A DNA stretch of 64,000 nucleotides from Halobacterium sp. R2-5 (lineage in GTDB: Archaea; Halobacteriota; Halobacteria; Halobacteriales; Halobacteriaceae). The stretch spans positions 124,001 to 188,000 of the forward strand of contig NZ_JAANTH010000003.1 of the NCBI RefSeq assembly GCF_011734195.1, read 5' to 3'. The notes under the pieces are model-generated. The model was not told where the DNA came from. It ran no database searches and saw only the letters and a list, made by a program, of their open reading frames with translations. This document shows positions 7,612 through 55,003 of the stretch, in pieces. The translations under genes and the position numbers were made by a program. How positions within the stretch are numbered: position 1 is the stretch's first letter; every line of letters begins with the position of its first letter.

Positions 7612-7630
7612 TTGAGGCCCGGTACAACAC

Positions 7631-12231: not shown

Positions 12232-13143
12232 ATGCCAGCAGCGAACGAACACAGTCACGACGGTAGTGGTGGTGAATCGAGTAGTGCGAGTAGTGGGGCG
12301 CGGTTTGGGTCGCCGGCGCGGTGTCATGAGACAGTGGATCCGGTGACACGGGAGGCGTTGCTAGAGCAGGATCGGTGGCGGTGTCAGGTGTGTGGGCGGC
12401 GTGGCCCGGGTGCGGGTGGGTTGGCGACGCTACACGCCCACCACATCGACCGTGATCCCAAGGAGATTGATGTGCACGCGATCGAGAATTTGACGACGTT
12501 GTGTCGGCCGTGTCACCGGTGGCTGCACGACCGCCCGACCGTTACGGATGCGCCGGTTGAGTTGAGTGATGGGGATCTCAGCGTGTTGTTGCCGCAGGAT
12601 TTTGAGATTCTGCGGGTGCTCGATCGTGGCGGGCCGGCGCGGACGGGTGAGATCGCGGCTGCGCTCACCGCGGATTTGACGGTGAGCGCGGTCCGCGAAC
12701 GCCTGTGGGTGCTCATGGGCCTCGACCACAAGGTCCAGGGCCGGGAGGCGCCGCTCGTTGACAAAGACGTGCAGACCGGACAGTGGGGGTTCCCGGGGGA
12801 CATCGAGACGTCGGCGCGTGGCCACATTCCTAGCGATCCGGGGGTGTTGTTGCAGCGCATGGAGGACGAGCAGGTGCGGCGGGCGCTTGCGCGTGGGTGT
12901 GATCGGCAGGCCGTTATGGACGTTCTCGGCGTGTCGCGTCGTTCGACGTTCTACAAGGAGAAGCGCGCGCAGGCGTACGATTTCCCACTCGACGCATTCA
13001 ACCGTGGCGGCCGACCGCCAACCAAGACCACTACTCAGCCTGGGGCAGGCGCTGGCAGTGACGGCCAGCAAGGACTTGATGATGCTACGCCTGACGTTGA
13101 GGGTGAGCTCGGGCGTGTAGAAACCTGGGGGTCTAGTTCGTAA
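12232..13143 (+). CDS. HNH endonuclease with winged-helix and HTH domains
   Basis: 303 residues from ATG 12232 (a GTG at 12190 is in frame). A full HNH motif lies at about 51-99: CQVC, then HAHHIDRD with three histidines at 68-71, Asn86, CRPCH at 91-95 and His99; the four cysteines bind structural zinc. A winged-helix domain follows (LPQDFEILRVLDRGGPARTG, about 118-170) and then a second helix-turn-helix (ARGCDRQAVMDVLGVSRRSTFY, about 223-247). HNH enzymes nick or cut DNA. The family, HNH fused to a HTH ending in a Gly/Pro-rich tail, is known in haloarchaea outside this context, so membership of the RAMP system is suggested by adjacency only; a 150-base gap separates it from the exonuclease. 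Confidence 0.8.
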   Translation: MPAANEHSHDGSGGESSSASSGARFGSPARCHETVDPVTREALLEQDRWRCQVCGRRGPGAGGLATLHAHHIDRDPKEIDVHAIENLTTLCRPCHRWLHDRPTVTDAPVELSDGDLSVLLPQDFEILRVLDRGGPARTGEIAAALTADLTVSAVRERLWVLMGLDHKVQGREAPLVDKDVQTGQWGFPGDIETSARGHIPSDPGVLLQRMEDEQVRRALARGCDRQAVMDVLGVSRRSTFYKEKRAQAYDFPLDAFNRGGRPPTKTTTQPGAGAGSDGQQGLDDATPDVEGELGRVETWGSSS

Positions 13144-40595: not shown

Positions 40596-40831
40596 CATTG
40601 TGCGGATATAGTACTGCTAGGAGATTCGTAGCGTGTGAAATCTACCGTATTTTCGACGTTGGGTGCGCGTTCTTTTACACCAGAGTACGGAGTGCAATAG
40701 CCGCTCAGTAGAATTGCGAACCTCGTAATCGTTATTGGAACATTCTGATGGTGAGCTTCGTCCACGCTCGTCAGTTGTGTACGTCGAACCCCGAAGCCAG
40801 ACTTTTTCGGCTGGACACGCGAAATTCACTA

Positions 40832-41482
40832 ATGGCAACAGAAGCGACGTTCCGCGTTCCCGGTGACGAGTTCCCGCTGGGCACCGTCTTCGAGGAATTA
40901 CCGAACGCGACGGTCGAACTCGAACGCATCGTGCCGGGGGCCGACGTGGTGATTCCGTACTTCTGGGTGCGGGGGTCGCACTCAGATGACATCGTCACGG
41001 CGTTCTCTAACCACCCGGGCATCCGGGACATGAAACTGATTGACTCCGTCGAGGACGAGTACCTCCTCCGCGTCGAGTGGGTCTCGGACTACGAGGACAT
41101 TCTCTCGACGATAGCTAGGACGGAGGTCCCGCTTATCGAGGCGAAGGGGACGGCCGAGCAGTGGACCTTCGAGATTCGCGGGGACGACCGCAGCGACATC
41201 GCGGAGTTCCAGCACCGCTGCCGCCAGCAGAACATTCCCATCGAACTGACGGCGCTGCACGCGCTCACACCGCTCGAAACCGGAGCCGAGGCCGCAATCA
41301 CCGACTCACAGCAGGAGGCACTGACCCTCGCCTACGAGCGGGGGTACTTCGATACACCACGCGAGATAACGATGACCGAACTTGGTGAGGAACTCGGTAT
41401 CTCCCAGCAGGCGGTGGCCTCCCGGATACGGCGGGGGACGCGCCGCATCCTCGGTAGCACCCTTACATCACTCGACGCCTGA
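40832..41482 (+). CDS. Bacterio-opsin-activator type HTH regulator
   Basis: 216 residues from ATG 40832; the longer reading from 40748 adds 28 residues that fit no family. An N-terminal sensory domain (RVPGDEFPLGTVFEELPNATVELERIV) is followed by a central GAF/BAT-like part and the HTH-10 domain (SQQEALTLAYERGYFDTPRE, ELGEELGISQQAVASRIRRG, about 164-210). The operon partners are unknown; the gene stands alone, 350 bases downstream of the IS remnant. Probably a transcription factor for stress or membrane functions, as other members. Confidence 0.88.
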   Translation: MATEATFRVPGDEFPLGTVFEELPNATVELERIVPGADVVIPYFWVRGSHSDDIVTAFSNHPGIRDMKLIDSVEDEYLLRVEWVSDYEDILSTIARTEVPLIEAKGTAEQWTFEIRGDDRSDIAEFQHRCRQQNIPIELTALHALTPLETGAEAAITDSQQEALTLAYERGYFDTPREITMTELGEELGISQQAVASRIRRGTRRILGSTLTSLDA

Positions 41483-41559
41483 CCCACCACGGCGTAAAAA
41501 GCGGTTGGATAGTCATAGGTCAGCCTGAATCCGATGCGGGTCGTATCTCAGGTATCCGC

Positions 41560-41904
41560 ATGTTCTCTCAAGATACCGCTCGAACCAGTACGCCGACGGA
41601 AGATGAACTCCACGCCGCGCTCTCCAACCGGTACTGTCGCTTCGTCCTGCACTACTTCAGCGATGCGTCCGAAAGCGCTGCTTCGGTCGCTGATCTCTCA
41701 ACCGCCGTCGCCCACGAGAAAGACACGGACGAAGACAAGGCAGTGGTACGGCTCCATCATGTAGCGCTCCCGAAACTGAGCAGTATCGGTGTCGTTGACT
41801 ACGATGCGGCGAACAAGACGGTCAGCTATCTTGGCCACTCCCATCTGGAGGGGCAGCTCCGCATCGGGGAGTCGGAACCCGAGTACGTAGTGGCGGTTCA
41901 ATAA
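41560..41904 (+). CDS. DUF7344-like winged-helix protein (copy 1)
   Basis: 114 residues. A PTEDELHAALSNRYCRFVLHYF start, a helical middle and VRLHHVALPKLSSIGVVDYD followed by a short strand form a haloarchaeal winged-helix fold, here called DUF7344-like. The conserved 'L-x-N-x-x-R...HHxxLPKL' pattern also occurs in three further genes of this window (42302, 47161, 54433). Such proteins are presumed transcription regulators without known ligands. It is 78 bases after the HTH-10 gene. Confidence 0.75.
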   Translation: MFSQDTARTSTPTEDELHAALSNRYCRFVLHYFSDASESAASVADLSTAVAHEKDTDEDKAVVRLHHVALPKLSSIGVVDYDAANKTVSYLGHSHLEGQLRIGESEPEYVVAVQ

Positions 41905-41949
41905 ACAGCCGGGTAGAAACTTGTCGTGTTGTGAGTGAGAACCAGATTC

Positions 41950-42180
41950 TCACGAGTGCTTGGCCACAGTTGGGTCAGCAATCGTGACTTCCTTCTCGCT
42001 GGTAACTGTCACCTCATAGCCCGCGTAGGTGAAGGAAATACTCCCGTCTTCCAGACTCTGGATAAGAGCATCTAGTTTTTCTGGGTCAATCGTGTCGTAC
42101 AGGGGTGGCAACGCCGTCACGCCGGCATTATTCTCCTCTGCTATCTTGGTGACAATCTGCTCTGAGGGAGAAGCGCTCAT
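41950..42180 (-). CDS. HalOD1 output-domain protein (copy 1)
   Basis: 76 residues, one HalOD1 domain: SEQIVTKIAEENNAGVTALPPLYDTIDPEKLDALI, then FTYAGYEVTVTSEKEVTI. HalOD1 is a small haloarchaeal output domain found alone or at the end of signalling proteins. It is divergent from a DUF7344-like gene and the pair is repeated at 54053-54750, so the two proteins probably work together. Promoters for both should lie in the AT-rich gap 42181-42300. Confidence 0.85.
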   Translation of the reverse strand: MSASPSEQIVTKIAEENNAGVTALPPLYDTIDPEKLDALIQSLEDGSISFTYAGYEVTVTSEKEVTIADPTVAKHS

Positions 42181-42301
42181 TGGTTATTATAAACACGAGT
42201 GATTACTTAATCCTCCTCGATTATTCCATCGAATCTCTTGTGATAGAAGATTTCTGGGTGTATATGGGGTTTAACCGTTCAGGGTGGCCATATACAGTAT
42301 G

Positions 42302-42616
42302 ATGGTTTCCGGCGCTGAAATTTCCGTAGATGACGTTCTCGCTGTCTTGAGCCACTCCAATCGACGCGAACTGCTGGCCTCGCTCATTGCTGACTCCCCA
42401 CCCGACGAGGCGACGTTCTCCGTTATTGATGTCGACGGTGCTGATAGCGCGATGCACCATCTTCATTTGCCGAAGATGGCTGACTACGGTCTCATCGTCT
42501 GGGAGAAAGACGCGGACACGATTACGAAAGGCCCGAATTTCGAGATGACTGAATCAGTTCTCGACTCACTCGCTGAACACGACGCCGACCTTCTCGCAGA
42601 CGAGGTGGCACTATGA
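42302..42616 (+). CDS. DUF7344-like winged-helix protein (copy 2)
   Basis: 104 residues from the second of two adjacent ATGs (42299 and 42302; a GTG at 42284 is also in frame). VDDVLAVLSHSNRRELLASLIADSPPDE forms the first helices, MHHLHLPKMADYGLIVWEKD the recognition part, and KGPNFEMTESVLDSLAEH the end. It is similar to the protein at 54433 (shared SPPD, HLPK, YGLI and KGP-F segments), while the other two family members here are more distant. Its stop overlaps the ATG of a 47-codon gene. Regulator of unknown targets, inferred. Confidence 0.8.
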   Translation: MVSGAEISVDDVLAVLSHSNRRELLASLIADSPPDEATFSVIDVDGADSAMHHLHLPKMADYGLIVWEKDADTITKGPNFEMTESVLDSLAEHDADLLADEVAL

Positions 42617-42756
42617 GTGGGAAACGCGACAGTGCAGAGACGTCAACCGAGGAGTACGGCATCACAGACGAAGACATCGAGCAGATGGTTGAGTATCTTC
42701 GGAAGCCAATGCACACCCGGAGTGTTGACGATCCCCGTCGTTCTGAGACGAAATAA
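42613..42756 (+). CDS. Small protein coupled to DUF7344-like gene
   Basis: 47 residues starting in the stop codon of the preceding gene (ATGAGT, overlap of four bases). The sequence is acidic and helical (ITDEDIEQMVEYLRKPMHT) and not recognised. A related small frame starts in the same overlapping way after the second copy of the cassette, at 54743. Translational coupling suggests that it is a real partner peptide. Confidence 0.5.
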   Translation: MSGKRDSAETSTEEYGITDEDIEQMVEYLRKPMHTRSVDDPRRSETK

Positions 42757-42803
42757 TTCGTCCAGATGAGCAGATTGCTAACTGAATTTCCTGAACTTAG
42801 CGG

Positions 42804-43271
42804 TCACGGGCTGTTGTTCTCGGGCTGGTTTAGCTGTGCTGGGAGTTCGAAGGTGAAGAACAGAACGGCTCCGAGCCCTACAAGCGCGATTCCTGCCCAC
42901 TCTTTGAGGGGGAGGTAGACGTGGTCGGCACCCCCACCGACTCCATCACGGATTTCGTAGACGGTGCCGTCGTATCTGACGGCGTCCGGGAGCCCGTCCG
43001 ACGCGGCTTTGAGTTCGGTATCTGTCGTGGAGAAGCTCCCGAACTCCCCGGGGTCGATGGCAAGCAGGAACACGCCACGTTGCTTGGGTGGGAGTGCAGA
43101 GCTGTTCACCACTGACGCTGGTTCGCCCTCGACTGGAGCGACAGAGATACGTTCAGCGTCCGGCTGAGAGGGAGCTGACTCCTGCGTGCCAACAGCGTAG
43201 AGTGTGGCTCCACTCGCGACCAAAACCACAGCGAGAACCGTCCAAACGCGAACCGTCACCGTTCGCGGCAT
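42804..43271 (-). CDS. Membrane-anchored protein of unknown function
   Basis: 155 residues with an N-terminal membrane segment (VWTVLAVVLVASGATLYAVG) and a C-terminal one (WAGIALVGLGAVLFFTFEL), enclosing an extracellular domain of about 85 residues (EPASVVNSSALPPKQRGVFLLAIDPGEF and TVYEIRDGVGGGADHVY). Similar two-helix proteins are frequent in haloarchaea. No enzymatic motif is seen. It stands between convergent genes. Confidence 0.7.
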   Translation of the reverse strand: MPRTVTVRVWTVLAVVLVASGATLYAVGTQESAPSQPDAERISVAPVEGEPASVVNSSALPPKQRGVFLLAIDPGEFGSFSTTDTELKAASDGLPDAVRYDGTVYEIRDGVGGGADHVYLPLKEWAGIALVGLGAVLFFTFELPAQLNQPENNSP

Positions 43272-43409
43272 ATCTCAGACTCTTGCTCCCCCAGATAAGT
43301 GTCTTGTTGGGCGGTCTGTACTGCTACGAGAGTTTTCTACGCCTTTCGAAACTCACTGTCCTATAGAGTGGATGAGTGGTTCAGACGATACGAGAACTAT
43401 TCATGGGAA

Positions 43410-44024
43410 TCACCGTACTTTGATACTTGCCTCCCCAGTTTCATCTACTTCGACAATCGCATTGACCGCTGATTTCAGCGTGGTAAGCTCCTGCTGGTCC
43501 CGTGATGGATCAATATGAAAATGAATCTGTGCATCGTTCGCCGAAAGGAAGTTCGAGATTGTTCTGATAAACCGAAACACAGTTCGTGTATCCGTATACA
43601 TCAACATCGCATCAAGTGAATCAAGACAGACCAAAATATCTGTTTGATTCACCCCTAGTTCCCCAACAATTTGATTGACTTTCATACCAACCCCAGTCAG
43701 ATCATCTGCCCGAGCAGTCGCAAACGAGACATTTTCGCCATATCCCTGGGGAGTCGGACTATCACTATCAGTGATACTCAGACAATGTAACCTCGATTGA
43801 GCATCGGGATTTCTCTCAAGCCATCTATCAGCAATCTCAGAGAGTGAAAAATGATAGGACATCTTGATGACGCCTGTTTCTGCGGGGTTCTCTGGTCGAA
43901 GTAAATCGTGGCAGACCTGATCTGTGGCTTCACTCATCTGTGGGGCGACCACCAGAACAGAGGACGCCTTTCGTAAAGCAGTCGAATCAACACCGGTAGT
44001 TGAATCGCGATTATGGCCAGTCAT
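43410..44024 (-). CDS. DUF7504-like (RecA-like) signalling protein
   Basis: 204 residues. The order of strands and helices (SVLVVAPQMSEATDQVC, LTGVGMKVNQIVGELG, TDILVCLDSLDAMLMYTDTRTVFRFI) resembles RecA/KaiC-like folds without a Walker A motif; the family appears to be the one termed DUF7504 in haloarchaea. Members often lie next to DUF7344-like or HalOD1 genes, as here. It overlaps the following upstream gene (44021) by four bases. No biochemical role is known. Confidence 0.75.
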   Translation of the reverse strand: MTGHNRDSTTGVDSTALRKASSVLVVAPQMSEATDQVCHDLLRPENPAETGVIKMSYHFSLSEIADRWLERNPDAQSRLHCLSITDSDSPTPQGYGENVSFATARADDLTGVGMKVNQIVGELGVNQTDILVCLDSLDAMLMYTDTRTVFRFIRTISNFLSANDAQIHFHIDPSRDQQELTTLKSAVNAIVEVDETGEASIKVR

Positions 44025-44407
44025 CGGAATCGCTCCTCAATTGTGTCGATCACATGGCCGACAGACCCGTTCCGCTCGACAGAGACAAATAGCGCATCGT
44101 CATGCTGAAAGAAGCGAACCAAGAGGACGTTAGCTGCCAGTGTGACAAATAATTCTGAATCCCCTGCGCCGGGGACGATATCGCCATACGCATGCCGGTC
44201 AAGAAAATCCATCCGGAGGAACTCTTCTATCTTCTGCCGCTGGTCTTCATAGTTGTCAGAGCCACCAAACTCGTCGATTACGTCATCGGAAACGTAGAGA
44301 TCGTTGTAGGTGTCCGTGTTGTATTCGGCGACGATCTGCAAGTTTGAACCGAGATCATCTACGAGTTTCTCGATTGGGAAATCATGGAGTTGAGGGGACT
44401 TAGCCAC
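44021..44407 (-). CDS. DUF7522-like small protein
   Basis: 128 residues, first gene of a two-gene minus-strand unit with the DUF7504-like protein. The sequence is mixed alpha/beta: FPIEKLVDDLGSNLQIVAEYNTDT at the start, VLLVRFFQHDDALFVSVERN near the end. It matches my recollection of a haloarchaeal family that accompanies DUF7504 proteins; no catalytic residues are evident. The constant pairing suggests a complex or a signalling pair. Confidence 0.65.
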   Translation of the reverse strand: MAKSPQLHDFPIEKLVDDLGSNLQIVAEYNTDTYNDLYVSDDVIDEFGGSDNYEDQRQKIEEFLRMDFLDRHAYGDIVPGAGDSELFVTLAANVLLVRFFQHDDALFVSVERNGSVGHVIDTIEERFR

Positions 44408-44767
44408 ATCCAGTCTATACCAACCATCCTGTATAGGTGACGCCCCTACTACTGAAGGCGAACCACTGGAATTGTCATGGGTTCTCTGACCCGTTGGGCG
44501 TCCGTGACATTCAGTCAGTTGACCGGGCCGATAGCGAACACCTCTTGCGCTGCTCGTTGGCTTTCAGATATGATCGTGTTCTTGATGCCTCATCGCTTCC
44601 GAGATAGTCCTTCTTTCCGCAGCTGGGACGCACTCCAACGGTTCGCTGGCTACGTACAGCGCCACAACGACGAGACGGAAATTGAGTCGCACAGATAAGA
44701 ATAGGGACGTTCCAATCTACGTCTTGTCGGCTACGTGCGTCCTGACCATCCCGTAATGGTTCCGTTC
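44408..44767. other. Intergenic region, possible gene remnant
   Basis: About 360 bases with no intact gene. Two plus-strand frames at 44490-44700 have plausible codon use in pieces (DIQSVDRADSEHLLRCSL, then WDALQRFAGYVQRHNDET), suggesting a small, decayed coding sequence, possibly of a mobile element. I could not assign it. Confidence 0.35.
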
Positions 44768-46147
44768 CTATGAGGGGACCCGATACAATTCGATCTGGAG
44801 GCACGTCTCTCCTGCATTCGAGTCTGGGAAGTTAATCGACCCGTGAGCATTCTCGACAATCCACTTGATTAGCCAGAGGCCAAGCCCACTCGAATGCTCT
44901 AACGGGGTCTCCTCGCCCTTCTCCAATGTATACCGTTCCGAGTCCGGAATCACGCCTGCATTCCGAATCTCGATTCGGGCCGTGTCTTCGCTTGGCGTCG
45001 AGACTGACACGACAACGTGTGGCGAGTCCCTCTCCTGATGGATAACCCCATTTTCGATGGCCTCACGCAACGCAACAGCCAGATCCTCCCCAGCAAGCAC
45101 CCTCACACCCTTAGCCCCAGAAAACTCCACCGCTGCACTCGAATATTCGTCTGTCGCCCCTTCGACGGCTGTCCTGAGGACTGGGCCAAGGTCCTGTGGC
45201 TCGACCGCAGTATCGCCCGTTGTTTGTTGAATGTAGCGGGCTTTCTCCGCCATTTCGACGACCGACTCAGCATGCTCGATGGCTATCGCCAGTCGCTGGT
45301 GACTCTCGGCGGACAACGACTCCGTCTCGTCCAGTAGTTCGAGCATCCCTTTCACGAGGTTGAGGTCGTTGCGGATGTTGTGCCGGAGAACGCGGTTGAC
45401 GATACCCAACCGCTGTTCGCGTTCGTCGATGTCGCGGCGGGCGTTCGTCAGCGAATACGCCTGCTCGAGCATCAGTTGCGCGTTCAACTCCGGGCTACCA
45501 GACGAGCGATAGTCCTCGGGTGGGATGTAGAAAGGGTTCGTGCAGAGCTGGTTGTGGTAGATAATCTGTTCGTGGGTCCGGAGAGCTTTCGCGACCGAAG
45601 TCTCGTTGAAGCGTTCGAGATCGTACTGACAGAGCGCGGTAACGGGGAGGTCTGGGCAGGCTGCATCGAAGTCCGCTTCGAAGTCGAGAATGTGGTCAAA
45701 TGACTGGTCCGTATGAAAGCACCACGAGTTCTCACCGGCAACCCACAACCCATCGTAGCCATCCGCAACACTAGCATCGGCTTCGTCTTCGAGCGTCGTG
45801 ATCATCTCGGCGGGGTCGAAGCCAGATTCGAGGTAGATATTTTCCGCATCTCGAATGACGAGATCGCCAGCGTCGATACGTCCCTCGACGTCGATGTTGG
45901 CTCGCCGGAGTGCAGTTTTGATTTCGGCAGCGGTATTGACGTCAAGCAGGTAGATGCAGCGGTGGCCGGACTGGAGGCCTTCGACGAGGAAGGCTGTGGT
46001 AGCAGCTAGCTGGGATTCGTTCGACCGGTAGAAGAGTGCGAGGTGACGTGGTAGTTTCTGGGACCCGAGTTCTGCTCGGAGGTCTGCGGTGGTCGCTTGG
46101 CGCGTTGTTTCTGTTGCCAACGGCGACTCGGGTCGTCCCTCCGTCAT
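44768..46147 (-). CDS. MEDS-domain sensor histidine kinase
   Basis: 459 residues from ATG 46147. N-terminal MEDS domain at about 20-200 (RHLALFYRSNESQLAATTAF, GHRCIYLLD, PVTALCQYDL), a family proposed to sense hydrocarbons or redox state by cysteine chemistry. Then a histidine-phosphotransfer segment with the H-box NRVLRHNIRNDLN near 260-272, and the ATPase domain with N-box ALREAIENGVIHQ and the G-box SGLGLWLIKWIV. No membrane segment, hence cytosolic. There is no response regulator beside it, which is common for haloarchaeal kinases. Confidence 0.9.
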   Translation of the reverse strand: MTEGRPESPLATETTRQATTADLRAELGSQKLPRHLALFYRSNESQLAATTAFLVEGLQSGHRCIYLLDVNTAAEIKTALRRANIDVEGRIDAGDLVIRDAENIYLESGFDPAEMITTLEDEADASVADGYDGLWVAGENSWCFHTDQSFDHILDFEADFDAACPDLPVTALCQYDLERFNETSVAKALRTHEQIIYHNQLCTNPFYIPPEDYRSSGSPELNAQLMLEQAYSLTNARRDIDEREQRLGIVNRVLRHNIRNDLNLVKGMLELLDETESLSAESHQRLAIAIEHAESVVEMAEKARYIQQTTGDTAVEPQDLGPVLRTAVEGATDEYSSAAVEFSGAKGVRVLAGEDLAVALREAIENGVIHQERDSPHVVVSVSTPSEDTARIEIRNAGVIPDSERYTLEKGEETPLEHSSGLGLWLIKWIVENAHGSINFPDSNAGETCLQIELYRVPS

Positions 46148-46225
46148 TGCCGCCACTTTGAGATGGAGGTATAAGAACTGTGTTAATAGATAATTTATAA
46201 TTAGATTCATCGAGGCGGTGTCGAA

Positions 46226-46248
46226 CTCACGGCGCAAGGCCGTGAGTC
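46226..46248. repeat. Perfect 9-bp stem upstream of the histidine kinase
   Basis: ACTCACGGC and GCCGTGAGT, separated by GCAAG, form a strong hairpin 80-100 bases upstream of the kinase start. The sequence is similar in kind to hairpins at the ends of haloarchaeal IS200/IS605 elements, but could equally be a terminator or an operator. No transposase gene is near. Confidence 0.45.
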
Positions 46249-46365
46249 GCTAGTAGACAACTGGTGGCGCTCGATTTGAACCTCCTTCTCGATTCAGTCG
46301 TGCAATTTCAGCCGTGAACCTGAATAAAGAATCCGCGCTAGCAACGACTGTGTAGCGGTGGTAGC

Positions 46366-47118
46366 TTACTGGCTGATGACGAAGATTGGTGCGTGTGTCT
46401 CTTGCCCGAGTTGCTCGGGAATCGTCCCACCAAAAAAGCGTTTGAATAGTGACCGTTCGGACGCTCCGATGACGAGCAGTTCATGCGCGACGCTTTCCTT
46501 TGCTATCGTCGGGACAACATCGTCGCTGCGAACGAGGGTTGTCACAACCGAACTGTCAGCCACCATCTCGGCATACGTATCTAATCGTTGGTCGGCTACC
46601 TGTCTTTGATTATCAGTTGCGCCCTCTGGGATGACTGTCAGCAGCGTAATTGAGGCGGCCCACTCAGAGGCGATACTGCTGGCTAGCGTCACAGCAGCAT
46701 CGCTATTTGGGCCACCCGCAACAGGGACGAAAATCGAGCTGATAGCCTGATTTGTCCCCGGGCCGTAGTGGTTGATTGTCACGTCCTCAAGGCCTTCTAC
46801 GTCAGTGAAGCCGAATTCTTGGCGAACGATTGCGTCCCCAGTATAGGCGTCTTGTCGATTGACGTGGCGTAGCAGCGGATTGCTTCTACTTAGGCCGGTC
46901 GGATAGGTGATAGCGAATTTGAACGGTGGTGATTTGGTTGGGAATGCTGGCATTACTCGTGGGTGGAGACTGTCGGATTTGATTACTCGCCAGAATAGAT
47001 CGGGCGACGGTTTTTGTCGCCCACGATGGGCGATAGATGGTTCATCTAAACCTAAGCGTCGCCGGTATAATTGTTTCTCGGCTTCCATCTGATACCTCAG
47101 TCTAGTATGTTCAATCAC
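46366..47118 (-). CDS. Usp-domain protein, probably the 3' part of a transporter-Usp fusion gene
   Basis: 250 residues from GTG 47118 (or ATG 47088, giving 240). Residues about 125-250 are a universal-stress (UspA) domain: AISSIFVPVAGGPNSDAAV, then LLVIGASERSLFKRFFGGTIPEQ with the GxS-x9-G ATP-binding pattern and THAPIFVI at the end. The first 120 residues (RRRLGLDEPSIAHRGRQKP onward) look like the cytosolic tail of amino-acid permeases that carry Usp domains, so the membrane part may have been lost. Stop codons upstream bar a longer reading. Confidence 0.7.
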   Translation of the reverse strand: MIEHTRLRYQMEAEKQLYRRRLGLDEPSIAHRGRQKPSPDLFWRVIKSDSLHPRVMPAFPTKSPPFKFAITYPTGLSRSNPLLRHVNRQDAYTGDAIVRQEFGFTDVEGLEDVTINHYGPGTNQAISSIFVPVAGGPNSDAAVTLASSIASEWAASITLLTVIPEGATDNQRQVADQRLDTYAEMVADSSVVTTLVRSDDVVPTIAKESVAHELLVIGASERSLFKRFFGGTIPEQLGQETHAPIFVISQ

Positions 47119-47160
47119 CTACTAAACCTTTAGAGCGTTCACAAAAGTTTATAATGTATC

Positions 47161-47535
47161 TTGGGAGACACGAATTTAGTGCTGGGACACAGGCCTAACG
47201 CGGACGAGACGGACCGAGTAATGGGTGCGTTATCACATACTTGCTGTCGCCGGTTGCTGTTCGGACTTTATGAGGCGGAGGAAGAGGAGTCTATCAATTA
47301 CACTGAAATCACTCCGCACGACGCTGAGAGGGACCACATACAACTGTATCACTCCCATCTCCCCAAACTCGAAACACTTGGATACATCAGGTGGGACGAA
47401 GCCGAGAAGACGATACAGAAAGGCCCTCAATGGGAGGAAATTGAACCACTTCTCGAACTCCTCCATTCTCATCTTTGCGAGCTGCCGGAGTTCCTCCAAG
47501 GAAAACCATCCGACAGGAACGGGACGAAATGCTAA
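47161..47535 (+). CDS. DUF7344-like winged-helix protein (copy 3)
   Basis: 124 residues from TTG 47161; GTG 47179 and ATG 47221 are alternative starts. ADETDRVMGALSHTCCRRLLF, HSHLPKLETLGYIRWDEA and KGPQWEEIEPLLELL are the family pattern. Divergent from the Usp gene with a short 42-base gap, so the promoters overlap. It has the same presumed regulatory role as the other copies, but two cysteines (CC) replace the usual residues after 'LSH', which may matter for sensing. Confidence 0.75.
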   Translation: MGDTNLVLGHRPNADETDRVMGALSHTCCRRLLFGLYEAEEEESINYTEITPHDAERDHIQLYHSHLPKLETLGYIRWDEAEKTIQKGPQWEEIEPLLELLHSHLCELPEFLQGKPSDRNGTKC

Positions 47536-47544
47536 ATCGTTCGT

Positions 47545-47640
47545 CTGTACTTACTAAAGGTACTCAACCCATTGAAGCGGGTTCTCACCAGCTGATTTTG
47601 GGTGAAACAGCCGCCCAGTAGGTATGCGTATTGTTCGTCC
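47545..47640 (+). repeat. Dispersed repeat R1, copy A
   Basis: About 95 bases (ctgtactta...gttctcaccagctgatt...gggtgaaaca) related to copies at 51575-51660 and 56091-56187, in the same orientation. The core is GTTCTCACCAGCTGATT. See finding. Confidence 0.6.
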
Positions 47641-47685
47641 AGAGGGATACGACCACCCTGGCCACCTCTCAGCTACGCAGTCACG

Positions 47686-48591
47686 TTACCAATCAAGGAG
47701 TTTCTCACCGGCCAGCGGGGCGACAATGGCCCCACCGACGCCGATCGTGGAGCCGAAAAACGTGGCCAACAGTGGCGGTTCAACGGCATACATCACCGCA
47801 AAGAAACCGCTTGCCAATCCGAACACACCGAATCCAGCAGCTGCCTCTCGGCGGTTTGACGGATGAGCGGGCGTTGCGTCGGCGATACCACGCCAGACGA
47901 GCCACCCGCCGACGCCACTTCCAAGCGCGGCCACACTCTCGAAGGTAACTCCCTGGATCAGCCCGATAGCGCCGGCGCCAACCGCGACGAGAAGCACTCG
48001 ACCGGGGGCAGTACCTCGGTCGGCGACCACGTAGAGCACGCCCAGCCCCACCACTCCGAGACCAACCCCGACCACGACGTCAACAAGATAGTGGACACCC
48101 AAGATGAGTCGTGACAGCGAGACGAGACCGACGACAGCTGCGGCTCCGAGCCATCCCGGCCAGAGCTCGTCTTCGAAGACGACGAGTGCGAATCCACCCC
48201 ACACCAGCGTACTCCCGAAGGCGTGACCACTCGGAAATCCGGGGCCCGACCCAGTTGCAATCGAAGCTAACACGCCCTGGAAGATGGCTGGAAGCCATGC
48301 TATGACGGGTGCCTCACCCGCACCCGGGGGCCGAGGGAGCAGGAAGAAATTCTTGAGCACCCCGATGAGAGCCACATACGTGAGTACGAGACCAAGAACG
48401 AACAGACCACGCCGCCGATCGATCCCCCATCGCGGGAACTGATCGCCGGCGATGTACAGAAGACCCCCCAACAGGAAGAGAAACCAAACGTCGCCGAGCT
48501 GGGTTAGTAGAGCGAAGACGATGAGAGCCGGCTCTGAGGTCCATCCGTGAAGTACTTCGGCCACCCCGAGACCGCGATCACCTCCGATCAT
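47686..48591 (-). CDS. PAP2-family phosphatase, membrane protein
   Basis: 301 residues with six to eight membrane segments. All three PAP2 motifs are present: KNFFLLPRPPG (the KX6RP-type), FPSGHAFGS and SRLILGVHYLVD (SRX5HX3D). The active site lies at the outer face, where these enzymes dephosphorylate isoprenoid, phosphatidate or sugar phosphates. C-terminal membrane segments beyond the core (AVGAGAIGLIQGVTF, GFGVFGLASGFF) suggest added function. Its stop is only 46 bases from the R1 repeat. Confidence 0.9.
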   Translation of the reverse strand: MIGGDRGLGVAEVLHGWTSEPALIVFALLTQLGDVWFLFLLGGLLYIAGDQFPRWGIDRRRGLFVLGLVLTYVALIGVLKNFFLLPRPPGAGEAPVIAWLPAIFQGVLASIATGSGPGFPSGHAFGSTLVWGGFALVVFEDELWPGWLGAAAVVGLVSLSRLILGVHYLVDVVVGVGLGVVGLGVLYVVADRGTAPGRVLLVAVGAGAIGLIQGVTFESVAALGSGVGGWLVWRGIADATPAHPSNRREAAAGFGVFGLASGFFAVMYAVEPPLLATFFGSTIGVGGAIVAPLAGEKLLDW

Positions 48592-48821
48592 ATTCGTATT
48601 GGGGACGTCTCGGCTGTAGTACCGTTAAGACCTCGCCCTGTACTTGATACTGCCCGAATATCTCGCGTTCTCGGTCAGCTATCTATCGAAACAGCCGTTA
48701 GGTCGGGAAGTCTACTTGCAAGGCGAGCGTTCACTTGGTGTCAACTTTCAGCAAGTCGTCTCAGTAGCGACCGACGTGATTTGAGCGCAACTCTTTTTTG
48801 CGTCGTGGGTGTCCTTGGCCT

Positions 48822-49187
48822 GTGAGCCCTCCAACTAGAAAGATCGCACTCGGCTTTGTGGTTGCCCTCCTCGTCGTCTCCGCGGGCTGTAGTGCGTTCC
48901 AGAACAGCAGTACGCCAACCGACACCGTCCGGCTTGTCAACCAAGATGATACCAGCCATGCGGTCGTGGTTGAAATTAGTCAGGGTGAAGAACTGGTCTA
49001 TTCGGCAGGTCGGACGCTCGATGCTGAATCAGGGACTCAGTTGGAATCCTTTGGCGAAAACGGCGAGTACCAGGTCGCAGTGACCGTCGATGGGAATACG
49101 ACCGTGAGGACATACACCTTCCCTAGTGATGATTCGGCGACAACAATTGGCATCGATAACGACGGGCAGGTAACGATTAGTACCTAG
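48822..49187 (+). CDS. Small lipoprotein
   Basis: 121 residues from GTG 48822. A short signal peptide with lipobox VSAGC (Cys near residue 22) is followed by a soluble immunoglobulin-like beta domain of 95 residues (TVRLVNQDDTSHAVVVEI, VTVDGNTTVRTYTFPSDD). Exported and lipid-anchored; function unknown. It is divergent from the PAP2 gene. Confidence 0.7.
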   Translation: MSPPTRKIALGFVVALLVVSAGCSAFQNSSTPTDTVRLVNQDDTSHAVVVEISQGEELVYSAGRTLDAESGTQLESFGENGEYQVAVTVDGNTTVRTYTFPSDDSATTIGIDNDGQVTIST

Positions 49188-49205
49188 TCTGCCGCAGCAA
49201 TTCAG

Positions 49206-49691
49206 TGCTCAGCGAGACCATAAGGAAGTCGGCTGGGATTCTGAGGGGCACCGGGTGCTGTTCCCTTACGGGCCTTCGCGCGAGGAGAAGAACTTCCCAC
49301 AGGCGGAGCGCATCGTGGACGTGGCCCGCTCCCGGCTCGACGACCCGGTGAAACTTCAGACGATGTCGGGAGTCCCGCATGATCGCGTGTTCTGGTATAT
49401 GAACGCCGCGGAGCGATGCTACTCACCTCGACGCGAGAAGGGGCGCCGAACACGGTCAAAGAAGCACTCGCGTGTAATCTCCCAGTGATTACGACTGATG
49501 TCGGGGATACCGCTCAGCGGGTTGCGGGTGTGAGCCACTCGACGGCTGCCAACGACGACGAAGTGCTCGCAGACGCTCTCGTAGAAGCGCTTCGATCCGG
49601 GGAACGGTCCAATGGTCGAGAAGCGGTTGCTGACCTCCGACTGAAGAATCAACTAGATCGAATCGAGGCGGTCTATCGGCTAGTAGCCTGA
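49206..49691 (+). pseudogene. Glycosyltransferase (GT4) remnant with frameshift
   Basis: Two frames make one broken protein. 49206-49420 reads HRVLFPYGPSREEKNFPQAE and continues to GVPHDRVFWYMNAA; from about 49416 the adjacent frame continues with AMLLTSTREGAPNTVKEALA, the classic E-x7-E GT4 motif, to NQLDRIEAVYRLVA. The N-terminal half is missing and one frameshift lies near 49410-49418. It is the relic of a GT-B glycosyltransferase. Confidence 0.8.
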
Positions 49692-49803
49692 TGAGAGTAT
49701 CTTTCGACAGGTTTCCTAACTAGGTACTCCTGCAAATCGGCGAGTTCGATTTGTAGTCTACTATATCTAAATCCCGACCTCACTTCCCTTCCCTCTCAGT
49801 GGA

Positions 49804-49853
49804 GGAATATCCGGGTTTCGTCACAGCGTATTACTGGTGCCCTTCGCGCCCGC
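49804..49853 (+). repeat. Dispersed repeat R2, copy 1
   Basis: 50 bases nearly identical (47 of 50) to 57039-57088. The core is GGTTTCGTCACAG.GTATTACTGG. In one frame both copies read E-Y-x-G-F-V-T-x-Y-Y-W-C-P-S-R, so this may be a coding remnant. The rest of 49854-50198 shows no gene. Confidence 0.65.
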
Positions 49854-50198
49854 TAACTGCTTCTGGCCACGAATCGCCGGACAACGGCGGGATCTGCGTG
49901 CTTGATGGACTAGTCCGTGTATGGGTTTCGTCATCCGGTGTGACGAACGCACCTGGGCCGATACGTCACGAGAATCGGTCTACTGATTCTGTTTCGTTGA
50001 TGGTGATTGCTCCTCTCTGTGGAGGTACTCTGGACAATTTATTACAATTGATCCTGTTCTGCATTACCCTCGAAGTTCGTGAGCGCAGTGAGCGCCCGAA
50101 GAAGGGCCCTCGAAGAGTTGCCTCGATATTGGGCGTCGCTCAAAAGCGAATCGTATTCTCAGTGAACCACTAACGGTCGAACGTGATACGGAACTCCT

Positions 50199-51386
50199 CT
50201 AAACCGTGGCGTTGTCCTCAACCAGGCCCGTTACCAATTCGAACTGGATGTTCTCGTGTTTACCGACGATTTTGGCTGTCGGGAAGCGGTATTCCCCGCG
50301 AACACGTTCGTCGTGGAGCGTGAACGACGTCGAATTCTCTTCTGTGTGTCCGGTCACGTAGACGGCATCACCGGGTTCGAGCGGTGCACCCGTGGTGATG
50401 TTCCCGGTCGCGTCAGCGTTCGAGCGGTGGATGTCCGTCTGGTTTCCAGTGCTCATGTTCTTCACGTAGACCTCGAAGGACGCGTTCGCTGGAAGGGTTG
50501 CTCCGCCGGTGTTGCGGAGTTCGAGCGCGTGTCCGTCCTCGACCATCGAAACTGAGAGATGAGGGAGGTCTGCGACCCACGACGGAGCCCCAGACCAGTT
50601 CACGTCGGTATCGAGGGAAGCCGAGTAGTTGTAATATTCGCCCTCCGTTTCGGGGTCGGGAAGGGACAGCTCGGCGCTGTGGATAACTCCCTCGGGGGCG
50701 ATGAGTGCACGCCCGTCGTACGATGAAACATTGTCGAATGTTGATTCGTTGGCTGTGAGTTCGACGAACGTCCGGCCATCACGCTCGACAGTGCCGTTGA
50801 CAGTGTAGTTTCCGGCGTAGAAGAAACCAGTGAGTTCGTACCGTGCGGTCTGCTCAGGCTCGGTTACCCAGAGAAATCCATCTCTGATTTCGTTCTGGGT
50901 GACAAAGTAGTGGTGTCCGTTGTTACCTGTCATCCTCTCGTAGCCGTGGGTATCCGTCTGGTATCTCTCCTCTACCATTTGAACGGTCTCGTCTGAGCGA
51001 TTAGAAAAGGTGAGGAACGGTGTTTTGTTCGACCCGTGCGCGTAGCGATAGACGTCTTCTTGGCTCGAAGGGGACTCTCTGTACGTGAGTTCCATTGACT
51101 TGTTTGCCGTCGCGTCGAAGTGCGCATTGATCAATTCGGAATGATTTGTGAGCGTGCCGTTGTCCGCGACGCCTGGAGGATACTGCTCGACACTAACGTT
51201 CGGCGACCACGTACCAGCCGTGGTCGTCGAACTAGCTGTCGTGGTAGGGGTAGCCGTAGTCGTGGTCGTAGGTGTGTCAGTATTCTCGGTGGTGCTGGAG
51301 GGGGTCGTCCCGCCGCTACAGCCGGCGGTAACGAGGAGGAGGGCGACGCCGACGGCGAGCGCCGCACGTCGTTTCGAGGCCGTCAT
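50199..51386 (-). CDS. Secreted lipoprotein of unknown function
   Basis: 395 residues from ATG 51386. N-terminal signal with lipobox VTAGC near residue 23, then a Thr/Ser-rich linker (about 24-55) typical of haloarchaeal surface lipoproteins. The mature part contains beta strands and many Asn/Thr sites suitable for N-glycosylation (NVSVEQYPPG, NYTVNGTVERDGRTFVEL) and resembles LolA-like lipid-carrier folds in its repeat of DG-x-FVELT strands, although this is weak. No partner gene is evident. Confidence 0.75.
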   Translation of the reverse strand: MTASKRRAALAVGVALLLVTAGCSGGTTPSSTTENTDTPTTTTTATPTTTASSTTTAGTWSPNVSVEQYPPGVADNGTLTNHSELINAHFDATANKSMELTYRESPSSQEDVYRYAHGSNKTPFLTFSNRSDETVQMVEERYQTDTHGYERMTGNNGHHYFVTQNEIRDGFLWVTEPEQTARYELTGFFYAGNYTVNGTVERDGRTFVELTANESTFDNVSSYDGRALIAPEGVIHSAELSLPDPETEGEYYNYSASLDTDVNWSGAPSWVADLPHLSVSMVEDGHALELRNTGGATLPANASFEVYVKNMSTGNQTDIHRSNADATGNITTGAPLEPGDAVYVTGHTEENSTSFTLHDERVRGEYRFPTAKIVGKHENIQFELVTGLVEDNATV

Positions 51387-51574
51387 GGAATGATCTAACG
51401 GCGTAGCGGGTAAAACGGTATTGACTGGCACCCCGAGGTCAACGAGAGAGCAGCGGGAGCGCCGAGGAGGACACGACGGTGTTTCATACTACTTCCTACA
51501 ATGACACATGTACGTTATTTTGTCTTAGAGGGCGTGTCGGTTGTCAGAAGTACCGCTCATCAGTCCGCTCTTCC

Positions 51575-51660
51575 CCTGTGCTTAGCGAAACGCCAAACCA
51601 CCGAGATGGGTTCTCCCCAGCTGATTTGGAGTGAAACACCCGGTCAGAGGTATACGTAGT
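51575..51660 (+). repeat. Dispersed repeat R1, copy B
   Basis: About 85 bases (ctgtgctta...ggttctccccagctgattt...gtgaaacacc) matching copies A and C. It ends at the 3' end of the membrane protein gene. Confidence 0.55.
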
Positions 51661-52229
51661 TACCTTGCTAACGACTCGGGTGTGATAACGCGGAGAGTGA
51701 CGACAACTGGCAGAAGGAAGATAATTGCGACGACAACCACAGAGAGCGGAATTCCAATGATAGCATCTGATTGCTGACGGATGATGTATAAGAGACCGAC
51801 AGCCAGTAGACCAGCCATCAAGGCAAGTGGATACCGCATCTCCCGCTGACGGAACCAGAGATAACCACTCAGACTCAGCCCGATACCGGGAATAACGAAC
51901 AGACCGGTAGAAATGGAAAATAGGCCGGCGGCCATCCCAGTGTACTGCCACGGCTGAAACACGGCAAGACTCCCGACGATACCCGTGATACCGACCAGAC
52001 TAATTACGAGCGCTGGAATCTGCTCGTATCGAATTTGACTGGGTGTAGACTCTCGGAACCAGAACCAACCAGTTGCTACAAATCCGAGATTAATCAGAAG
52101 GAGAAGGATGGTTGCTAATTCCGGAAGGTCAGCATTTAACGGCCCATATTCAGGCCAAAGACCAACGATGGTAAGAAGACTACCAATAAGTCCCAGAATA
52201 ATAAGTGATTTAGCCGCTGTCGTAGCCAT
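51660..52229 (-). CDS. Membrane protein, six helices
   Basis: 189 residues, six predicted membrane segments (SLIILGLIGSLLTIVGLW first, VSVVVVAIIFLLPVVVTLRV last) with very short loops. No motif or family recognised. Ends with a short basic tail, so the C-terminus probably faces the cytosol. Single gene, promoter in the AT-rich 52230-52300 region. Confidence 0.65.
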   Translation of the reverse strand: MATTAAKSLIILGLIGSLLTIVGLWPEYGPLNADLPELATILLLLINLGFVATGWFWFRESTPSQIRYEQIPALVISLVGITGIVGSLAVFQPWQYTGMAAGLFSISTGLFVIPGIGLSLSGYLWFRQREMRYPLALMAGLLAVGLLYIIRQQSDAIIGIPLSVVVVAIIFLLPVVVTLRVITPESLAR

Positions 52230-52432
52230 ACGGACACAATCTCCCGAACATGTAAATGTCTTGTCTGTACTGGCCGATTCAGCTCTTAATGTTTCAGCCC
52301 CCGTCGGAAATAGCGTACCCTCCAGTGATTTTCCCGGTATATCTTCTCGTCGGCCCTTTCCTGGCGAGTGATGGTACAGTCGTTTGTTGAGTCCCCTGAA
52401 ACCCTTTACAGAGGCCCCGGTAGTGACTTCGT

Positions 52433-52987
52433 ATGAAACGCCGGGCAGTACTTACGACGATCTCGTCCGTGGCTGGACTCGGGGCCGTAGCTGGGTGTCT
52501 CGGCATGGACGATAACCTTGGAGACGAGACGGGAACCACCCCGGCAGAGACGACGACCACAGAAGGATTGCACACGACCTCGACGCAGACGACAGACCGT
52601 CTGCCTGAGGACTGCCAGCCGCTTCCAGATATTGACGGGTTGCCTGCTCGCCCGCAGACACTCTCAAAGGACGGTGTCACGGCGTACGTGAGGGAGTTCG
52701 AACAGGCGTATGTGGCCGCCGCCATTGACGAGGACGAAGAACTGGTTTCGCTCATCGTTGAGCGTGTCTCCGAGGAGTCAGGGGACTACACGGTCGAACT
52801 ACTCGGCGAGATGGTATCGACGACACAACGGACAACCGGCGAGGAGACGCAGACAGAGCAGCCGGTGGACGCCCGTGAGTACAGGGTGCAGTATCTGGTT
52901 TCGGAGCATCGGCTAGTTCGTGAACGTCGTGGGATTGCCGGTGGGACGGTTATCTCGCAGAATTGTTGGATGATAAACACTGCATAG
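52433..52987 (+). CDS. Secreted lipoprotein
   Basis: 184 residues. MKRRAVLTTISSVAGLGAVAGCLG is a Tat-like or Sec signal with lipobox VAGC near residue 22. A Thr-rich linker (TTPAETTTTEGLHTTSTQTT) leads to a soluble alpha/beta domain of about 120 residues. No known family. Isolated gene. Confidence 0.75.
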   Translation: MKRRAVLTTISSVAGLGAVAGCLGMDDNLGDETGTTPAETTTTEGLHTTSTQTTDRLPEDCQPLPDIDGLPARPQTLSKDGVTAYVREFEQAYVAAAIDEDEELVSLIVERVSEESGDYTVELLGEMVSTTQRTTGEETQTEQPVDAREYRVQYLVSEHRLVRERRGIAGGTVISQNCWMINTA

Positions 52988-53146
52988 ACGTTCTCTCGTG
53001 GACTGGAGAATTCTCTCGAACGCTGTAACGTTCGCCTGTACTTTGTACTTAGCCCACCAATATGGTGTGTAGAAGAATCTTCGATGACAGAGAATCAGCG
53101 AGTAAGAGCTGTACCTCCCTGAATTTCTGGGGGACAGAGAACCGTT

Positions 53147-53965
53147 TTAGCGTGAAATAGATTGCACGAAGTCAAGAACATCTTGCTCACGCTGCTGCCA
53201 ACCCATATCCAGATCCACACTCACGCTCAGTTCAATAGCATCTGACATCGAAACGTTTTGAGAATCCTCAAAGTCATCCGCAGGATAGACTCCACCACCA
53301 GCAAGAATCGAGCCGTTGGATTTCCACCGACCAGCAATACCTTTGATCGGGAGTGTCCCGCCACCGAACGTCAGTTCGTCCTGGTCACTGTGCGGGATAT
53401 CGACGCCACTTATCGTCACTTCTTCAAGCGGATACTCGCCGCGCACTACCGGGAATTCTCCCGCAGATGTATTTGACGCGTCCATTGTACCGTCGGTCTG
53501 AATGTTCTGGACGCCAAACTCACGCATTGCCGAAGTAAGATGATCTCGGATCGATTTCCTGATTTCCCCGTTTTTCAGCCTGGTGGCTATCGAGAGATGT
53601 GAGGGGAATACGTCCACCCGTGACGCAAATGCCACAGCGAATGGACGGTCGATTTCGCCGAAGGTATCTTCTTTAATCCGCTCACGAAGATGGGTGTCCT
53701 CGTAACGAACAGTATGGCCATGGGCAGTGTAATCCACAACGAATGCTGCACTTCCCTCCAGTAACAATCGAGGTTCTGAATTCGGCGTTTTGAGCGTCCA
53801 TCGGTCGACAGCATCGACTTCTGGCGCAGGGACATCTTTGTCTGAAGATTCGCCCACTTCCGCATTTGAAGAACCCCCACAGCCAGCCAAGGCACTGCTG
53901 CCGGCGACACCGATTCCAGCCAATAGACGCCGACGGCTTAGCGTCGGTTGCTCATTTTCTCCCAC
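53147..53965 (-). CDS. Tat lipoprotein of unknown function
   Basis: 272 residues from GTG 53965; a start at 54016 would add 17 residues before the signal. The twin-arginine signal SRRRLLAGIGVAGSSALAGCGG has its lipobox Cys near residue 28. The mature domain is beta-rich (RWTLKTPNSEPRLLLEGSAA, PFAVAFASRVDVFPSH). Residues include no obvious metal or catalytic set. Upstream sequence is AT-rich. Confidence 0.7.
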   Translation of the reverse strand: MGENEQPTLSRRRLLAGIGVAGSSALAGCGGSSNAEVGESSDKDVPAPEVDAVDRWTLKTPNSEPRLLLEGSAAFVVDYTAHGHTVRYEDTHLRERIKEDTFGEIDRPFAVAFASRVDVFPSHLSIATRLKNGEIRKSIRDHLTSAMREFGVQNIQTDGTMDASNTSAGEFPVVRGEYPLEEVTISGVDIPHSDQDELTFGGGTLPIKGIAGRWKSNGSILAGGGVYPADDFEDSQNVSMSDAIELSVSVDLDMGWQQREQDVLDFVQSISR

Positions 53966-54052
53966 AATGATACGACAGTTCGAATCTAATGTTAAATTCT
54001 TTCTCCTGAGAAACATCCGCTAGCAAGGGCTGCGAATGGCGCATTCACGGGT

Positions 54053-54307
54053 TCAGTCGTCGCAGTTGGCTTCGCAACTGGGAGAGTTACTTACGGTCGG
54101 TTCAGCGAGTGTGATCGCGCCATCGCTGGTGACGACAATCTCGTAGCCCGCGTACGTGAACGAGACCGCTCCATCGTCCATGCTTCCGATGAGGCGGTTG
54201 AGACTGTCGGGGTCGATTACATCGTACAGTAGTGGTAGCTCTATTGCGTCTATGTCGCGTTTCGCTGCGATGGTATCGATAATTCGCTCTGACGGAGATT
54301 CAGACAT
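54053..54307 (-). CDS. HalOD1 output-domain protein (copy 2)
   Basis: 84 residues, one HalOD1 domain: PSERIIDTIAAKRDIDAIEL, LYDVIDPDSLNRLIGSMDDG and FTYAGYEIVVTSDGAITLAEP. It shares most positions with the copy at 41950-42180 and has a short Cys-containing tail (SCEANCDD) that the other lacks. Divergent from a DUF7344-like gene in the same layout as copy 1. Confidence 0.85.
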   Translation of the reverse strand: MSESPSERIIDTIAAKRDIDAIELPLLYDVIDPDSLNRLIGSMDDGAVSFTYAGYEIVVTSDGAITLAEPTVSNSPSCEANCDD

Positions 54308-54432
54308 CAGCTAGCTATCTCATAAGAGAGACGACCACTTAATGCCGAGCCGTTTTTTGTAGCTCACTTATTCAAAAATCCGCAGCGTTCAAAGTGAATG
54401 GTGGTTATCCGTGCCGGCGGCCTATCAATGAT

Positions 54433-54750
54433 ATGACGCAGACGAAATCTGACCTCTCCATAGACGACCTGCTCGCAGCCCTCAGCAACGTCCAGCGACG
54501 CCAGCTACTGGAATCACTACTCACTGACTCGCCACCCGATGATCCAGCCTACGTCATCGTTGACGCCGACACCAACCTCGCGATGTACCACATTCACCTG
54601 CCGAAATTAGTCGAGTACGGTCTCATCAACTGGGACGAAGACACCAATCGGGTAACCAAAGGCCCGGAGTTCGAGGCGGCAGCCGACCTGCTTTCCCAAC
54701 TCACCAACCACGACGAACCCCTCCTTTCGAAGGAAGTCAACGATGACTGA
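54433..54750 (+). CDS. DUF7344-like winged-helix protein (copy 4)
   Basis: 105 residues from ATG 54433. LSIDDLLAALSNVQRRQLLE, SPPDDPAYVIVDADTN, YHIHLPKLVEYGLINWDED and KGPEFEAAADLLSQL correspond one to one to the protein at 42302. The overlap of its stop with an ATG at 54743 is also conserved. Cassette duplication is the simplest explanation. Confidence 0.8.
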   Translation: MTQTKSDLSIDDLLAALSNVQRRQLLESLLTDSPPDDPAYVIVDADTNLAMYHIHLPKLVEYGLINWDEDTNRVTKGPEFEAAADLLSQLTNHDEPLLSKEVNDD

Positions 54751-55003
54751 GCGAAGCGGCGACGCGGCGCACTCCACTGAGGGGCATGGGAGTACCGACG
54801 GGGAGAGTGAGCAGAGGGGTGTATCTGCGGAAGCCAACGCACAGGCAGAGTGTTGGCGATCTCCGTTACTCCTTGGAGAAATAACTCACTCGGAGTACCC
54901 AGGTGTATCCTCTAAACTTACTGTTCCGCCTGCTGGGATTGGAAGTCGTGGAGTTGCTCTCGAAGCTGACCGATTTCGGCCTGCTGGGAGACGAGCATTG
55001 TGA
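54743..55003 (+). CDS. Possible small coupled protein after DUF7344-like copy 4
   Basis: 86 codons beginning inside the stop of the preceding gene. The first 35 residues are polar (MTERSGDAAHSTEGHGSTDG); the rest overlaps, in antisense, a better-supported gene, so the true end may be different or the gene may be frameshifted relative to the 47-residue counterpart at 42613. Low confidence. Confidence 0.3.
   Translation: MTERSGDAAHSTEGHGSTDGESEQRGVSAEANAQAECWRSPLLLGEITHSEYPGVSSKLTVPPAGIGSRGVALEADRFRPAGRRAL

Follow-up and report, generated by a model that had tools for sequence, protein, structure and literature searches.

Genes for two haloarchaeal protein families, the output domain HalOD1 and the family DUF7344, are found side by side more often than expected by chance. 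In a 64,000-nucleotide stretch of Halobacterium sp. R2-5 (the window; positions 124001-188000 of contig NZ_JAANTH010000003.1, here C3, in a genome of 2.98 Mb on five contigs), the two genes form a cassette together with a small open reading frame (ORF), here called 'o', and this cassette occurs at two places. The pairing is real at the level of the families, and the adjacency, often with overlapping reading frames, suggests that HalOD1 acts jointly with a small regulator that binds DNA.

To describe the loci of other genomes, HalOD1, DUF7344, HTH_10 and 'o' were found with iterated profiles of our own, and Pfam served as a check for a selection of the proteins. The first sample consisted of all 58 DUF7344 loci that one search gave outside R2-5 (22 other genomes), together with flanks of about 4 kb as far as the contigs reached. 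A HalOD1 gene was present within 500 bp of DUF7344 in 11 of these 58 loci, in seven cases downstream of DUF7344 on the same strand, in two cases upstream of it, and once each in divergent and convergent orientation. The density of HalOD1 genes fell about nine-fold with distance, from 19 per 100 kb within 500 bp to 2.2 per 100 kb at distances of 1-4 kb; in smaller bins it was 21.0 and 17.7 per 100 kb within 500 bp, followed by 5.4, 3.6, 2.8 and 0 out to 4 kb. With 11 of the 21 HalOD1 matches closer than 500 bp, the binomial p value against the region of 500-4000 bp in the same loci was 1.8e-5. HTH_10 domains were likewise found near DUF7344, within 500 bp in 7 of the 58 loci (p = 1e-3 for 8 of 18 matches).

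A second set of loci was taken from a DUF7344 subfamily (that of loci L076, L077 and L083) with matches in 94 of 292 genomes. The best locus of each of 30 of these 94 genomes was examined, the three seed loci included. HalOD1 followed DUF7344 within 500 bp in 18 of the 30 loci, and in 15 of 27 when the seeds were left out, the latter coming from 13 genera and four family codes. HalOD1 started inside the DUF7344 gene or at its stop codon in 17 of the 18 operon pairs, and those members of the pairs that were run against Pfam score above its curated cut-offs. On a tree of 112 HalOD1 domains, of which 37 belong to pairs, pairing must have changed at least 17 times, of which well supported branches force at least five; the alignment has 73 columns for these 112 rows and many forks are unresolved. 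The sequence-only reading of the window had proposed that the pair be counted in other haloarchaeal genomes and had named chance-level pairing as the outcome that would speak against a functional unit. Both counts, 11 of 58 as well as 18 of 30 (or 15 of 27 non-seed loci), were above chance.

The pairing rates depend on the choice of loci. When one HalOD1-centred locus was taken from each of 30 genomes, one of them R2-5 itself, DUF7344 was located within 500 bp in two and within 1 kb in six. Among the 29 best loci from other genomes matching the cassette DUF7344 proteins, a single one had HalOD1 within 500 bp, and there the two genes were co-directional. We therefore rejected the idea that the divergent layout is conserved across haloarchaea. 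A search of genome contigs with the DUF7344 protein of copy 2 returned one locus, which had no HalOD1 in its 8.3 kb. In another genus of the same family (G020) a HalOD1 gene is divergent to a DUF7344 gene scoring 41.3 bits (L056:3317-4306). Five further loci (L192-L195 and L199) have HalOD1 on the strand opposite to DUF7344, about 1.2 kb downstream and with other genes in between, apparently as one orthologous arrangement. DUF7344 relatives were also found in 54 plasmid records. In the 16 of these that were examined, an annotated HalOD1 was present within 3 kb in seven and less than 500 bp from the central DUF7344 in three (L131, L135 and L138), and the loci often lie beside helix-turn-helix or Lrp regulators. 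DUF7344 had no match in phage records, and a search of viral contigs with two degenerate DNA patterns gave 0 matches.

In the window, copy 1 of the cassette consists of a stand-alone HalOD1 gene on the minus strand (41950-42180, 76 amino acids; PF18545 77.1 bits, profile positions 2-73 of 74), a divergent gap of 121 bp (42181-42301) and a DUF7344-like winged-helix gene on the plus strand (42302-42616, 104 amino acids; PF24035 28.3 bits, profile positions 46-76 only), for which the ATG start was picked by comparison with the paralogues. It is followed on the plus strand by 'o' (42613-42756, 47 amino acids), the start of which overlaps the DUF7344 stop (ATGA). Copy 2 has HalOD1 on the minus strand at 54053-54307 (84 amino acids; PF18545 75.8 bits, profile positions 2-72 of 74), a gap of 125 bp at 54308-54432 and DUF7344 on the plus strand at 54433-54750 (105 amino acids; PF24035 32.0 bits, profile positions 49-76 only). 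Both HalOD1 proteins clear the PF18545 cut-off of 26.3 bits across the full domain, and both DUF7344 proteins are above the PF24035 cut-off of 27.8 bits, marginally. The two-place layout of a minus-strand HalOD1 gene, a plus-strand DUF7344 gene and a start codon overlapping its stop, as described from the sequence alone, was borne out at the same coordinates. The third ORF stood only in part, since it is intact in copy 1 and represented in copy 2 by the overlapping start alone: on the plus strand at 54743-54884 the start overlapping the DUF7344 stop (ATGACTGA) is present and the frame is broken. The DNA homologous to 'o', which extends to 54884, is in a different frame from the start at 54743, and only the C-terminal part matches. 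Either the ORF has truly decayed, or the sequence contains an error close to a stretch of G.

The whole genome has 22 HalOD1 and 25 DUF7344 matches. Besides the two copies in the window, a relative of the cassette at C1:232-896 has HalOD1 and DUF7344 and no small ORF, and another at C3:59.3-60.0 kb has a broken HalOD1 next to an intact DUF7344 gene and small ORF. A fifth divergent pair, at C1:347.4-348.3 kb, has a DUF7344 gene of a different subfamily; next to it come an HTH_10-type regulator and one more DUF7344 gene. Because there are only 22 HalOD1 and 25 DUF7344 matches in 2.98 Mb, five divergent neighbours closer than 500 bp are far above random placement. At the broken relative (L004:2520-2929, about 59.0-59.4 kb of C3) HalOD1 is cut to 45 amino acids and continues into what is left of a Usp gene, its final third. 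An intact relative of this Usp piece is found in the window at 46366-47118, adjoining another DUF7344 gene, and the junction reads as a deletion or recombination scar.

Copies 1 and 2 are 47% identical in DUF7344 and 51% in HalOD1, and blastn aligned them over 429 columns at 65.7% identity, so that the double occurrence reflects duplication. We therefore did not count the two copies as independent evidence. Copy 2 and the C1 copy align over 564 columns at 66.7%, spanning both genes and the gap, and among all copies in the genome identity ranges from 45 to 51% for HalOD1 and from 47 to 65% for DUF7344. With a model of their own, the DUF7344 proteins of the four cassettes reach 174-186 bits, and the next best match in 391 genomes 123. 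The ratio of non-synonymous to synonymous substitution rates (dN/dS), to be read with dS values close to saturation, was 0.16-0.39 for DUF7344, about 0.34 for HalOD1 in the two of three comparisons that gave a computable dS, and 0.11-0.21 for 'o' in the four of six that did. These identities and dN/dS values indicate that, at the sequence level, the copies are old paralogues under purifying selection. The claim that conservation of the layout argues for a signalling unit thus held in one respect, as the pairing recurs elsewhere. It did not hold in the other, since the two copies are paralogous and the divergent layout is rare (one of the 29 nearest relatives was paired, and one of the 11 pairs was divergent); a physical interaction and a role in signalling are proposed.

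An AlphaFold2 model of the DUF7344 protein of copy 2 has helices at residues 10-17, 20-31 and 47-61, a beta hairpin at 65-76 and a C-terminal helix. This predicted topology fits an ArsR-like winged helix, with moderate confidence over the central part, and the best matches in the PDB found with Foldseek were the ArsR/SmtB repressors CadC, HlyU and BigR (probability 0.96-1.00). Neither DUF7344 copy contains a cysteine. The HalOD1 model consists of helices followed by three strands, with a mean predicted local distance difference test score (pLDDT) of 76.5.

In three of the four divergent gaps compared, an alignment read by eye revealed a common block with its end about 20 bp in front of the DUF7344 gene. 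It is shared by copy 2 and two other copies, and the gap of copy 1 is the least conserved. Along with the block there is a TATA-like element (GGTTAACC or a variant of it) some 30 bp in front of the DUF7344 start codon, and an element of the TCAAA type recurs at about 18 bp. This arrangement would fit a candidate leaderless promoter with a possible operator.

The small ORF 'o' encodes 40-47 amino acids with the motif GITDEDxxxIxxYLxKPxHxRSVDDL. No match of weight was found in Pfam, NCBIfam or PHROGs (best PHROGs E value 0.044), and none in plasmids. Profile searches of 391 genomes found it in 13 genomes with three seeds and in 75 with fourteen seeds, many of these matches being weak. It lies directly 3' of DUF7344 in G235, again with an ATGA overlap, and in G005. 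In G033, DUF7344, an 'o'-related ORF without an obvious long start and HalOD1 follow one another on one strand, and in L013, L118 and L128 'o' is less than 250 bp from a HalOD1 gene. That the third ORF is a chance frame was rejected, since its relatives are conserved in sequence, selection on it is purifying and the overlap recurs in G235. The link of 'o' is looser than that between HalOD1 and DUF7344, because there are 18 'o' loci with neither family. In ten loci of one genus (L157 and L162-L170), which look orthologous, a relative of 'o' with an open frame of 41-52 amino acids is located tail to tail with DUF7344 at about 255 bp; eight of these loci also have HalOD1 at a distance of about 1.1-1.4 kb.

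Taken together, we consider it an even proposition that DUF7344 is an ArsR-like DNA-binding repressor and HalOD1 its partner or relay, with the contact, the DNA binding and the signal inferred. The basis for this is the recurrent adjacency, the frame overlap, the purifying selection and the family membership, together with a winged-helix topology predicted at low to moderate confidence. DNA binding, autoregulation, direct contact between HalOD1 and DUF7344 and the role of 'o' would be deduced from these. A DUF7344 dimer would bind DNA in the region of its own promoter, and probably at other sites too. HalOD1 would be the dedicated signal-responsive partner that binds DUF7344 or relays a state to it, thereby relieving or setting repression, and 'o' might be an optional third part, co-produced with DUF7344 via translational coupling. 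In this genome HalOD1 is read divergently, so that a single operator in the gap of 121-125 bp could govern both sides; the two genes form one operon with overlapping frames in many other haloarchaea. More tentatively, and with rather less confidence than an even chance, HalOD1 may be a dedicated co-regulator of DUF7344, sometimes together with 'o', in a haloarchaeal module that was built repeatedly in varied layouts and for which shape control of the DdfA type is one use.

Several observations weigh against such a partnership. HalOD1 was lacking within 500 bp in 47 of the 58 DUF7344 loci of the first sample and in 28 of the 29 nearest relatives of the cassette DUF7344, and DUF7344 was lacking within 500 bp in 28 of the 30 HalOD1-centred loci. 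A gene fusion of HalOD1 and DUF7344 was rejected, as no fused ORF was present among the loci of the first samples. Eighteen distinct 'o' loci have neither DUF7344 nor HalOD1 within 1.5 kb, and parts of the cassette were lost independently (HalOD1 is broken at C3:59 kb, and 'o' has lost its frame in copy 2 and is missing from C1:0.2-0.9 kb). The DUF7344 model has a mean pLDDT of 64.9, from an alignment of five sequences, and its Foldseek matches have E values of about 0.01; the HalOD1 model had no PDB match with Foldseek (best E value 0.54). Finally, the DUF7344 protein of copy 1 is very acidic, with 22 aspartate and glutamate against 5 lysine and arginine residues. Highly acidic proteins are usual in haloarchaea.

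Among the alternatives, the one that survives best is a functional link without contact, in which HalOD1, as an enzyme or metal-binding protein, alters a small ligand that DUF7344 senses while controlling the HalOD1 gene in a local feedback. We regard this as possible, though improbable. It would agree with the HalOD1 motifs, for which metal binding or enzymatic activity has been considered (PMC5847659), and with the ligand- or metal-sensing ArsR proteins among the best fold matches of DUF7344. However, no catalytic fold was recognised in HalOD1, the DUF7344 copies have 0 cysteines, and the fusions of HalOD1 to REC domains (PMC5847659) better suit an output or contact domain.

It is unlikely that the pairing merely reflects the clustering of regulators, with abundant HalOD1, DUF7344, HTH_10 and Lrp-like genes piling up as passengers in plasmids or islands. 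Each family has many members (this genome alone has 22 and 25 matches), HTH_10 also occurs near DUF7344 and the nearest relatives are mostly unpaired, as this would predict. An island effect does not explain the roughly nine-fold fall in density between the first 500 bp and 1-4 kb in the same loci, nor the frame overlap seen in 17 of the 18 operon pairs across several families. Duplication only, that is, a layout that recurs because one cassette was copied, with neighbours that have no special relation, is largely refuted as a full account and we give it a slight chance. The copies are indeed paralogous in both genes, copy 2 and the C1 copy also in the gap, and the layout is rare outside this genome, but this leaves the operons in other genera and the repeated changes of pairing unexplained, and under purifying selection the two genes have remained neighbours while their copies diverged to about 50% identity. 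Least probable by our estimate is a toxin-antitoxin-like pair, in which the winged-helix protein would be an antitoxin that regulates its own gene and the toxin would be HalOD1 or 'o'. This would suit the small overlapping genes, the occurrence on plasmids (54 records) and the decayed copies, but not the HalOD1 genes that are common without a DUF7344 neighbour or the shape and motility phenotype of the ddfA deletion (PMC10869688).

With regard to the neighbourhood in the window, a signal-transduction cluster surrounds copy 1 (40748-47535). It contains a Bat-like BAT-HTH_10 regulator upstream of the cassette (40748-41482, plus strand; PF04967 61.1 and PF15915 56.3 bits), a further DUF7344 protein beside it (41560-41904, plus strand, 114 amino acids; PF24035 52.0 bits), the DUF7344 and HalOD1 genes of copy 1, a DUF7504 gene (43410-44024), a MEDS histidine kinase (44768-46237), the Usp gene (46366-47118) and, adjoining the latter, a third DUF7344-like gene with no HalOD1 partner (47161-47535, plus strand; PF24035 31.6 bits). 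All four DUF7344 members of the window are above the Pfam cut-off. Elsewhere in the window, a row of genes at 7612-13143 has weak PADLOC matches (Csm3 and Cmr3 of the RAMP type, a DEDDh exonuclease and HNH; E values 8e-4 to 5e-5) and may be a defence locus, CRISPR-like and diverged or of another kind.

Of the known systems, the ArsR/SmtB repressors CadC, HlyU and BigR resemble the predicted topology of DUF7344 and are its best fold matches. DUF7344 is not a match to the curated family (12.6 bits with the NCBIfam model HTH_metalloreg, cut-off 55), and the metal-binding cysteines of ArsR/SmtB proteins are missing in both copies. Such cysteines are not universal within that family. The Bat-like BAT-HTH_10 regulator adjoins copy 1, and the HTH_10 domain was seen in 7 of 58 DUF7344 loci, but it is a separate gene outside the cassette. 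DUF7344 (PF24035) itself, a domain of unknown function, was not named in the literature searched.

Galperin et al. (2018, PMC5847659) describe HalOD1 as an output domain of haloarchaea that mostly makes up a protein by itself; they note (DE)hh(DEN) motifs and consider that it may bind metal or have an enzymatic activity. It occurs in nearly all haloarchaea in up to 49 copies per genome (PMC5847659) and ranks third in the list of frequent domains of a pipeline study (PMC11459464). The cassette genes, with 76 and 84 amino acids, encode typical short members of the stand-alone form (PF18545). Unlike the cassette, the domain as presented in the excerpts of PMC5847659 has no winged-helix or DUF7344 partner mentioned. 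No report of the HalOD1-DUF7344 pairing was found in the accessible parts of the literature searched on HalOD1, DUF7344 and DdfA (including PMC12852389, PMC7230728, PMC13286277, PMC11459464 and PMC11784639). For so frequent a domain, a recurrent partner with a predicted DNA-binding fold turns its mode of action into a testable question, namely whether HalOD1 modulates DUF7344 regulators.

A further comparison is with DdfA (HVO_2176), a HalOD1 protein needed for the disk shape of Haloferax volcanii, whose deletion affects shape and motility (PMC10869688; for the former also PMC7824242). The ddfA gene adjoins those of RdfA and Sph3, and a DUF7344 partner is not mentioned in the available part of PMC10869688. 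With the DdfA model NF053557 (cut-off 70) the cassette HalOD1 proteins score 64.1 (copy 1), 63.4 (copy 2) and 68.7 (third intact copy), all below the cut-off, whereas the divergently paired HalOD1 of L056 scores 71.6. A HalOD1 protein above the DdfA cut-off is thus encoded divergently to a DUF7344 gene, which ties the question of modulation to the switch between rods and disks and to motility.

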